From Acidimicrobiales bacterium (lineage in GTDB: Bacteria; Actinomycetota; Acidimicrobiia; Acidimicrobiales; Iamiaceae): a stretch of DNA of 37,755 bases. Within the stretch, counting starts at the first letter, position 1, and the number at the start of each line of letters is the position of its first letter. Below are positions 3,567 through 6,563 of this stretch, piece by piece. The notes beneath the pieces were generated by a model that was not told where the DNA came from, did not search any database, and saw nothing but the letters and a program-made list of their open reading frames with translations. A program made the position numbers and the translations under genes. Location: NCBI GenBank assembly GCA_012513855.1, contig JAAZBK010000305.1, positions 1 to 37,755 on the forward strand, read 5' to 3'.

Positions 3567-6356
3567 TCAGCCCAGGTCCACGTCTATCCCGACCACGTCC
3601 GCGTCGACGTCGATGACCACCGCTACGAGACGGCTCGGGCCGCCGTGCCACGACCTGTCCAGCCCCGACCCCGCCGGCGGGTCCACCAACAGGTGGTACT
3701 CACCTGCCGGTAACGGCCCCGCATCGAAGGTCCCATCGGCCGAGGTGACCACGGTCGCCGCAGCGAACCAGTTGGTCGACTTCTCGAACACGTGGACCGT
3801 CGCGCCCTCGAGCCGTGCTCCCCCGAGGCCGGCCACGGTGCCGGCCAGCCTGTAACCAGGCTCCATCACCACCGGATCCATCGTGCCCGCACCCTCGCTG
3901 ACCACCACTCCGGTGACCATCTCGACCAACGCGTTCACACCCGCAGGCCCGACCACCAACGCCGTGTACGTGCCATCGGGCAGCTCAGCCGAGAACGCAC
4001 CGTCGGCATCGGTGGCGGCACCTCCGGTCGGTGTCCAGAAGGTGTCGCCCGGGGCGTACAAGAGCACCAGAGCGCCCGCCAGGGGACCCTCCACCGAGTG
4101 GCTCACCGAACCGGTGAGCGCCGGGGTCGCGTCGGCGACCTCGATCTCGACGATCCGGAAGTCCGACACCGGTCCGGTCGATCGGGCCTCGACCTCGAAG
4201 CTGTACGTACCAGCGATGTTCGGCATCCCGGACAAGAGTCCATCCGACGACAACGACAGGCCCGGCGGCAGATCACCATCGGACACCACGAAGCTGCCAT
4301 CACCCAGGTACGACGCCGAGATCTGGTGCGACACGCTCGAACCCAGGGTCAGCGACGAGGGCGGAAGAGACCCGAGCACCGGGCCAGACCGGCCATCGTC
4401 CGTGCTGCCCCAGCAGTCGATCCGCCCATCAGGGCGCAGACCACACGCATAGTCCTCGCCAGCCGCCACCGCCGCGAACGACACGTCGGGCGTCGAACCG
4501 AACGAGGGGGTATCGCCCCAGCACGCCACGCCCCCGGCAGCGAGGAACCCGCAGGTGAAGTCGAGCTGAGAGCTGAGGGAGTCGAACTCGAGCGCCGGCG
4601 GTGACGTCCGTCCACTGCCGGGGTCACCCCAGCAGATCACGGTGCGGTCGGCACGGATCGCACACGAATGACCGGCGCCAGCGGTCACCGAACGGTAGCC
4701 ACCAGAGGTGGGCGCGTCGCTCACCTGCCCGTTGTTGTCGTTGCCCCAGCACGTGACCGAGCCGGTCGTCGAGACGGCACAGACGTGGTTCTGTTCGATG
4801 CTGACATCGACGTAGGACCCGGCCGGCTCGTTCGTGGTCTGGCCGTATTGGTTCCGGCCCCAGCAGTCGATGGATCCGTCGAGGGCGATGCCACAGGCCG
4901 TGAAGGCACCCACGGAGACCTTGGCGAAGGTGGTCGAGGGAGCCAAGGCCACCGCCTCGCTGGACGATTTCCCCCAGCAGGTCACCGCACCGCTGACCGG
5001 CAGCGCGCAGCTGTAGCCGTAGCCGGTGGCCACCTGGGTGAACGATCCCGCGGGTGGAGTCGCCTCACCCGCGGTGTCGTTGCCCCAGCACGAGAGCGAC
5101 TGGTCCGGTTGCACGGCGCAGCCATGACTGGTCCCGGCATCCAACGGCGGCAGCGACAACGGAGGCGCCACCACCTCGATCTCGACGATCCGGAAATCCG
5201 ACACCGGTCCGGTCGTTCGAGCCTCGACCTCGAAGCTGTAGGCGCCGAGCGCGGTGGGAGAACCGGACAGCAGGCCGTCGGACGACAGCGTGAGGCCAGG
5301 CGGCAGGCCACCATCGGAGACCACGAAGCCGCCATCACCCAGGTGAGACGCCGAGATCGGGTGCGAGACGCTCGCACCGATCAGCAACGAAGCGGGCGGA
5401 AGGGATCCGATGACCGGGCCGCTCTCACCGCCCGATGACCTTCCCCAGCAGTCGATCCGGCCATCGCCACGGATGCCGCACGAACTGCGGTAGCCGGCCA
5501 CCACCGTGGAGAAGGTGCCCGGGGGCGGCGACGACTTTCCTTCATCGTGGCTTCCCCAGCAGAGGGCGGATGCGTCGGTGAGCAGCCCACAGGTGTGGAG
5601 ACCTCCCGCGCTGACCTCGGAGAAGGTCACCGGCGGGACGTTCGACTGTCCGAACGAGTTGCCGCCCCAACACGACGCCGATCCACTGCTATCCAACGCA
5701 CACATGTGGTAGTCGCCTGCCGTCACGGCTGTGAACCCTCCCCCCACCGGTGCTCCGCTCACGACGCCGTTGGCGTCCTGGCCCCAGCAGGCGAGTGAAC
5801 CGCTCGTCGAGAGCGCGCACGCATGACGCCCGTCGGTGGCTACCGAGGCGAACGAGCCAGAAGGCGCCTGGCTGACGATTCCGTCTTCGTCGCTTCCCCA
5901 ACAGCGCACCTCGCCATCAGTGGCACCGATGGCACAAGCGTTGTGGTAGCCCGTCGACACGTGCACGAACGATCCCGCCGGAGGAGAGGTCCTCCCGTCC
6001 TGGCCCTGCCCCCAGCAGGCCAGGCTCTGGTCGGTCTTCAAACCGCAGGTGAAATCGGTTCCGGTCGCCAACTGGGTGAACGACCCGTTGGGAGGGGTGC
6101 CCTGCCCGTCGACGTCCGAACCCCAGCACGACACCGACTGGTCCGACATCACGGCGCAACCGTGCTTGGTTCCAACGTCGAGCGATGACACCTCGACCAC
6201 CTCGTCGGCGGCGGATGGTGGTGCGAAGGTGAGGATCGCGGGTAGGCCCACCACCGCCATCAGCGCCACCACGACCGCCAGAACCGACCGGCGCCGCCGA
6301 CCTTCGCCCGGTGGGCCAGCCGTCTCCCCACCGCTCCTTGCCCGTCTCGCATCCAT
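3567..6356 (-). CDS. Secreted RCC1-like double beta-propeller protein with two Ig-like domains and C-terminal carboxypeptidase-regulatory-like repeats
   Basis: Signal sequence RRRRSVLAVVVALMAVVGLPAILTFAPPSAADEV; 14 C-x(9-11)-CWG repeats; two LPPGLxLSSDGLLSGxP...YSFEVEAR Ig-like segments; two SG-type repeats (DGAFSAELPDGTYTALV, DGTFDAGPLPAGEYHLLV). Confidence 0.85.
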   Translation of the reverse strand: MDARRARSGGETAGPPGEGRRRRSVLAVVVALMAVVGLPAILTFAPPSAADEVVEVSSLDVGTKHGCAVMSDQSVSCWGSDVDGQGTPPNGSFTQLATGTDFTCGLKTDQSLACWGQGQDGRTSPPAGSFVHVSTGYHNACAIGATDGEVRCWGSDEDGIVSQAPSGSFASVATDGRHACALSTSGSLACWGQDANGVVSGAPVGGGFTAVTAGDYHMCALDSSGSASCWGGNSFGQSNVPPVTFSEVSAGGLHTCGLLTDASALCWGSHDEGKSSPPPGTFSTVVAGYRSSCGIRGDGRIDCWGRSSGGESGPVIGSLPPASLLIGASVSHPISASHLGDGGFVVSDGGLPPGLTLSSDGLLSGSPTALGAYSFEVEARTTGPVSDFRIVEIEVVAPPLSLPPLDAGTSHGCAVQPDQSLSCWGNDTAGEATPPAGSFTQVATGYGYSCALPVSGAVTCWGKSSSEAVALAPSTTFAKVSVGAFTACGIALDGSIDCWGRNQYGQTTNEPAGSYVDVSIEQNHVCAVSTTGSVTCWGNDNNGQVSDAPTSGGYRSVTAGAGHSCAIRADRTVICWGDPGSGRTSPPALEFDSLSSQLDFTCGFLAAGGVACWGDTPSFGSTPDVSFAAVAAGEDYACGLRPDGRIDCWGSTDDGRSGPVLGSLPPSSLTLGSSVSHQISASYLGDGSFVVSDGDLPPGLSLSSDGLLSGMPNIAGTYSFEVEARSTGPVSDFRIVEIEVADATPALTGSVSHSVEGPLAGALVLLYAPGDTFWTPTGGAATDADGAFSAELPDGTYTALVVGPAGVNALVEMVTGVVVSEGAGTMDPVVMEPGYRLAGTVAGLGGARLEGATVHVFEKSTNWFAAATVVTSADGTFDAGPLPAGEYHLLVDPPAGSGLDRSWHGGPSRLVAVVIDVDADVVGIDVDLG

Positions 6357-6390
6357 GGCTCCAACCTCTCCTCGTCGGTCTCGATCTGGT

Positions 6391-6458: not shown

Positions 6459-6563
6459 CCCGCCACCGTGAACCACTTGGCACCCGGGCCGCATCGGGGG
6501 ATCCCGCCAACCTTCAGCTGGCCCTCCACCGGATCGGGTGTCGGTTTCCCGCCAAAGCCCAGG

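Follow-up and report, generated by a model that had tools for sequence, protein, structure and literature searches.

BLIP-II of Streptomyces exfoliatus (PDB 1jtd, 3qhy, and 3qi0) is secreted and consists of seven RCC1-type blades, each short and three-stranded, and the plant CRINKLY4 kinases (ACR4, 7a0j; Physcomitrella CR4, 7a0k) carry seven C(x10)CWG repeats of about 39 aa each, for which disulfides have been proposed (PMC4617170), as we also propose below. The short blade of the one and the Cys-containing repeat of the other were thus known already. The window (the whole stretch of DNA analysed here; 37,755 nucleotides) encodes a protein that joins the propellers of the RCC1/BLIP-II type and whose Cys-paired blades are of the CRINKLY4 type. 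Like BLIP-II, it has rings of seven short three-stranded blades and is secreted, the latter by sequence inspection; like the CRINKLY4 kinases, it has a CWG repeat with paired cysteines, although with one residue fewer between them in 13 of its 14 blades. It has two such propellers, an arrangement that is unusual yet not unique.

Gene, domain order, and surroundings

The coding sequence of the twin-propeller protein occupies 3567..6356 (reverse strand; 929 aa). It was delimited from the open reading frame, the Pfam domains, and a GC3 of 0.82, and its GC content at the three codon positions (0.64/0.59/0.82) fits a real high-GC gene. A ribosome-binding-site-like sequence, GAGGAGAGG, was read at 6365..6373 (reverse strand), 9-17 bases 5′ of the ATG at 6356; a start at the in-frame ATG at 6494 instead would lengthen the protein by 46 aa.

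All domains are encoded on the reverse strand. The N-terminal signal peptide (residues 1-50; 6207..6356) was judged by eye from an RRRR run, a hydrophobic stretch, and the ending ..PSAA/DE. It is followed by propeller 1, with seven C-x9/10-CWG blades (residues 51-312; 5421..6206), Ig-like domain 1 of the He_PIG family (residues 313-398; 5163..5420), propeller 2, with seven C-x9-CWG blades (residues 399-657; 4386..5162), Ig-like domain 2, again He_PIG (residues 658-741; 4134..4385), and two CarboxypepD_reg domains, the first prealbumin-like (residues 743-830; 3867..4130) and the second SpaA-like (residues 831-929; 3570..3866). All domains after the signal peptide were found with Pfam; the propellers were assigned in addition from motif counts and AlphaFold2 models (with Foldseek matches to BLIP-II and CR4 for propeller 1). 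The Pfam matches put the repeats and domains far beyond chance: RCC1_2 with E=7.8e-73 (239 bits against a cut-off of 22), He_PIG with E=3e-18 in two stretches, and CarboxypepD_reg with E=2.1e-13, also in two stretches. The order signal, propeller, Ig, propeller, Ig, and two regulatory-like repeats is the one proposed by an earlier sequence-only reading of this DNA, which had named RCC1_2 and He_PIG as the profiles to search; Pfam and inspection agree with it throughout.

No lipobox, SLH domain, or LPXTG-type sorting motif was seen in the protein by sequence inspection and the Pfam scan, so it is probably released or held non-covalently. NCBIfam gave no meaningful match to it, and a defence-system library gave no match at all. 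Directly upstream on the same strand lies a large LuxR-type regulator with an AAA domain (window:6564-9287); this gene and an M48 peptidase are the same-strand neighbours, and no clear functional link to the propeller gene was found in them. Elsewhere, GC content drops to 0.585 at window:36001-37500, the rest of the window being at 0.65-0.75.

Blades, rings, and their duplication

The protein has exactly 14 CWG motifs, seven at residues 77, 114, 152, 190, 229, 266, and 303 and seven at 423, 460, 498, 536, 575, 612, and 648, the two sets being separated by 120 aa. The pitches between blades are 37, 38, 38, 39, 37, and 37 aa in the first set and 37, 38, 38, 39, 37, and 36 aa in the second; canonical RCC1 (RanGEF) blades are about 50-60 aa. 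Thirteen blades have the spacing C-x9-CWG and one has C-x10-CWG; these 14 pairs account for every one of the protein's 28 cysteines. Counting thus bears out the sequence-only reading on two sets of seven CWG motifs, each followed by an Ig-like segment (He_PIG in Pfam), and on blades shorter than those of canonical RCC1; its C-x(9-11)-CWG spacing, however, has to be corrected to x9 or, in the one blade, x10.

That reading had further suggested one disulfide per blade, for which the evidence is indirect. The two cysteines co-occur almost perfectly: over 1338 blades from this protein and its relatives, both are present in 1189, neither in 123, and a single one in 26, a distribution whose p-value is inflated by relatedness and which comes from a blade model trained on C..CWG blades. 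Within proteins of the Cys type no blade has a single cysteine, and 24 of the 1338 blades lack the tryptophan yet keep both cysteines. To judge from the spacing, C-x9-C in a hairpin whose turn has three residues would make the two cysteines face each other, and a disulfide would then close each blade from strand 2 to strand 3.

AlphaFold2 placed the 21 propeller strands of a propeller 1 plus Ig construct in seven groups of three (pLDDT 84, mostly >90 in the blades), and the full-length model repeated the 21-strand pattern in propeller 2 (pLDDT mostly 60-90); the alignments behind these predictions held five to six sequences (six rows for propeller 1 plus Ig). The full-length model has a pTM of 0.40, uninformative on domain arrangement, and its Ig 2 and C-terminal part have pLDDT mostly below 50-60. 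A Foldseek search with modelled propeller 1 returned BLIP-II as the best match (3qi0_C; 251 columns superposed at rmsd 2.0, target-normalised TM 0.78), followed by CR4 and ACR4 and then UVR8 and RCC1. By single sequence, the closest solved chains are ACR4 7a0j (3.2e-20) and then BLIP-II 1jtd/3qhy; with a profile made from the alignment they are BLIP-II (1.2e-51) and CR4 7a0k (5.7e-44), human RCC1 reaching 4.9e-09. The earlier proposal of two full propellers is thus matched by the models, in which both sets form 7 x 3 strands and ring 1 superposes on BLIP-II.

The gap between BLIP-II and human RCC1 also bears on the idea that the protein is a host-directed effector mimicking eukaryotic RCC1 (RanGEF-like). 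The Pfam repeat is named after RCC1, and effectors carrying RCC1 repeats are known from Legionella (PMC7157520); but the profile scores favour BLIP-II by far, the blades are 37 aa rather than 50-60 aa long, and Cys-paired blades suit an oxidising exterior and not the cytosol, which leaves such mimicry with very little credibility.

We surveyed blade counts in about 105 regions of the organism's own genome and its relatives, to which viral and plasmid loci were added. Uncut runs of Cys-type blades are a multiple of seven in 80 of 105 cases, or in 69 of 89 once clustered at 60% identity. Of the 58 runs with fewer than 10 blades, seven is the count in 50 and six in none; 30 runs have 14. Arrays beyond 14 blades have 15, 16, 17, 18, 22, 23, or 29, one of them consisting of 22 perfect repeats; contiguous arrays of 15, 16, 22, 23, or 29 blades occur in L161, L149, L144, L145, L151, L159, L164, and L166 (loci of the survey), several being 7n+1. 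The rule of seven appears strong and not absolute: the sequence-only reading, for which homologues off a multiple of seven would count against the double propeller, fits the majority with seven or 14 blades and is at odds in part with these longer arrays. Assembly error in short-read genomes possibly lies behind the exceptions; short-read assemblies have been shown to be unreliable for such repeats in HET-D/E (PMC12222747).

These contiguous arrays of 15, 16, 22, 23, or 29 blades are also what could be cited for reading the 14 blades as one large ring, an open solenoid, or a strand-swapped dimer. We hold this to be very improbable, since in the window protein an Ig domain parts the two sets of seven, their pitch series are nearly identical, and both are modelled as 7 x 3 strands; a spacer-bearing relative, the 3425-aa protein of L148:1861-12135, in turn has six separated C..CWG sets with 42 Cys pairs, together with fn3 domains and a Calx-beta domain.

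Blades at the same position of rings 1 and 2 share 43% identity and other pairs 34%; a match as good as the positional one arises in 19 of 5040 permutations, and the six other rotations are all worse. Because blade i best matches blade i, the whole 345-aa propeller-Ig unit was duplicated, not blade by blade. Identity between the halves is 43% for the rings and 80% for the Ig domains. At 4-fold sites the propellers are 0.42 identical, where 0.35 is expected by chance, and the Ig domains are patchily conserved. The near-chance propeller sites rule out a recent duplication and make that of the unit old despite the 80% Ig identity; the Ig domains have probably been conserved and partly homogenised. 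The genome also encodes a paralogue (L016, contig 159) with seven C-x9-CWG blades, a He_PIG-like Ig domain, and three regulatory-like domains of the CarboxypepD_reg type, whereas the window protein has two propeller-Ig units and two regulatory-like domains; the paralogue shares 40-46% identity with the window protein in the propeller and 55-66% in the Ig domain and, to judge from its sequence, is the unduplicated form. A further paralogue, L014, carries a lipobox-like VLAGC and a contiguous array of 14 blades, each of 37 aa.

The variable face and its possible partners

The 22 residues with which BLIP-II contacts its target were taken from PMC10817188 (Tyr19 as printed being read as Tyr191), and a single offset brings all 22 into register with the chain, Thr57 and Asn304 being placed by hand. 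Allowing for a BLIP-II hairpin shorter by one residue, they map to blade positions 11-12 and to the post-WG loop at 28-32, with Thr57 further along the loop. The most variable positions among 667 family blades are, in order, 12, 30, 31, 11, and 28; under this mapping, the family's most variable positions are those that BLIP-II uses to grip beta-lactamase.

Rings 1 and 2 of the window protein share 4 of 42 face residues (10%) and 79 of 189 elsewhere (42%; p=3e-5), and diversity among its own blades is 0.92 at the face and 0.72 elsewhere (permutation p<0.0005). Since loops are variable whatever the fold, some divergence of the face is expected without selection. With synonymous sites saturated between the window's blades (0.67 different), its face diversity is only consistent with selection. 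In near-identical arrays of relatives, by contrast, the face has changed far more than synonymous sites have: face and synonymous differences are 0.56 and 0.05 in L149, 0.46 and 0.13 in L152, and 0.47 and 0.18 in an Acidovorax plasmid protein (L108). Loop pieces also reappear in fresh combinations in relatives' arrays. Both observations point to shuffling combined with selection that favours variability of the binding face. Codons 11, 12, 28, 30, and 31 differ strongly, and synonymous sites hardly, in L149 (plus strand, ORF from 1089), L152, L161, L175, L153, L183, and L108. As a source of this variation in the relatives a diversity-generating retroelement is disfavoured, as the variable codons include TGG, GTG, GAG, and TTG and not only NNC/NNT.

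The same propeller type is fused in relatives to other domains: L147:135-3515 joins it to a subtilase, and a Rhodococcus plasmid joins a version with 50-aa blades to a cutinase (L112:2704-5400); SLH domains or SLH-like motifs stand ahead of it in L176, L187, L165, and L161, apparently a surface-anchored subfamily, and some relatives join it to fn3 domains. Such fusions are expected of a binding module. In viral contigs, a single-sequence search found no direct relatives, and an alignment search found 24 loci, mostly long proteins with partial arrays, which served as alignment material and in the blade-count survey; L084-L107 are phage or viral contigs whose long proteins include short propellers of the RCC1 type, of which some have CWG.

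Taken with the mapped face, these data make binding the probable function of the window protein. The account we favour, and consider reasonably probable, is that of a secreted extracellular binding protein with two RCC1/BLIP-II-type rings, each with a He_PIG Ig domain, and a prealbumin-like pair at the C-terminus. Each modelled ring would have seven complete blades, locked by the disulfides without the split "velcro" blade of BLIP-II; the turn between strands 1 and 2 (positions 11-12) and the post-CWG loop (28-31) would form one face per ring; each ring may bind a different partner, a protein or a surface glycan; and the Ig and prealbumin-like domains would act as spacers.

The propellers could instead be stable building blocks of a surface layer, structural or adhesive, that bind nothing specific, the variation of the face being loop drift. 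The SLH domains, fn3 chains, and long arrays of relatives fit such a role, as do the saturated synonymous sites of the window protein, but drift does not produce face change far above synonymous change, as seen in L149 and the Acidovorax protein, and we regard this as unlikely. The resemblance to BLIP-II raises the narrower possibility of a secreted enzyme inhibitor, directed at a beta-lactamase, a protease, or another secreted enzyme: BLIP-II is the best structural match, it too is secreted by an actinobacterium, and the contact face is common to both. This is improbable, given that the aromatic contacts of BLIP-II (F74, W152, Y191, and W269) are not conserved at the window face, that no beta-lactamase was found among the scanned genes neighbouring the propeller gene, and that the protein's two faces are almost wholly unlike each other.

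Beyond the binding role of this one protein, we tentatively suggest, as a possibility that we hold with less than even confidence, that it belongs to a large bacterial family of disulfide-laced RCC1-type propellers forming a natural repertoire of binders, in which the blades are fixed, selection and the reshuffling of loop cassettes between blades diversify one face, and the proteins are secreted or surface-anchored; the double propeller of the window would be an old member with two specificities.

Comparison with known systems

BLIP-II differs from the window protein in having a single propeller and no Ig domain, and no Cys pairs in the part of its chain examined. Its chain begins with a strand (VVAWGG) that belongs to the last blade and ends after strand 2, whereas every repeat in the window protein is complete, so that the two ends of the chain do not share a last blade. 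The CRINKLY4 kinases are plant receptors with one propeller, a TNFR-like Cys domain, and transmembrane and kinase parts; Pfam found none of these three parts in the window protein, and no Cys lies outside its blades. Two proteins of the RCC1_2 family (PF13540) come near to it in other respects: Acidovorax WP_338799355.1 has 14 C..CWG blades and an Ig domain (Big_3_5), but its pitch is 41 aa and its blades form one run with no spacer, and Prescottella WP_286462199.1 combines a short propeller with He_PIG as here, but has one propeller and that Cys-less.

A more distant parallel is offered by the fungal HET-D and HET-E, whose two modelled seven-bladed WD40 propellers are built from repeats that are nearly identical but for a few hypervariable sites, which are under diversifying selection (PMC12222747). 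The variability of the arrays is similar to that of the propeller family, but HET-D and HET-E are of the WD40 lineage and are intracellular NOD-like receptors; the likeness is one of analogy.

Since neither the fold nor the repeat is new, annotating the window protein by itself is worthwhile but of modest weight; the diversification of the face in its relatives offers more. Propellers of this kind may prove to be binding scaffolds that can evolve, that have a variable face at defined positions, and that are stable in an oxidising exterior, and they could be of use in studies of bacterial self/non-self recognition and in binder engineering. The window protein itself links the CRINKLY4-type repeats of plants, the BLIP-II of an actinobacterium, and many unnamed secreted proteins of bacteria.
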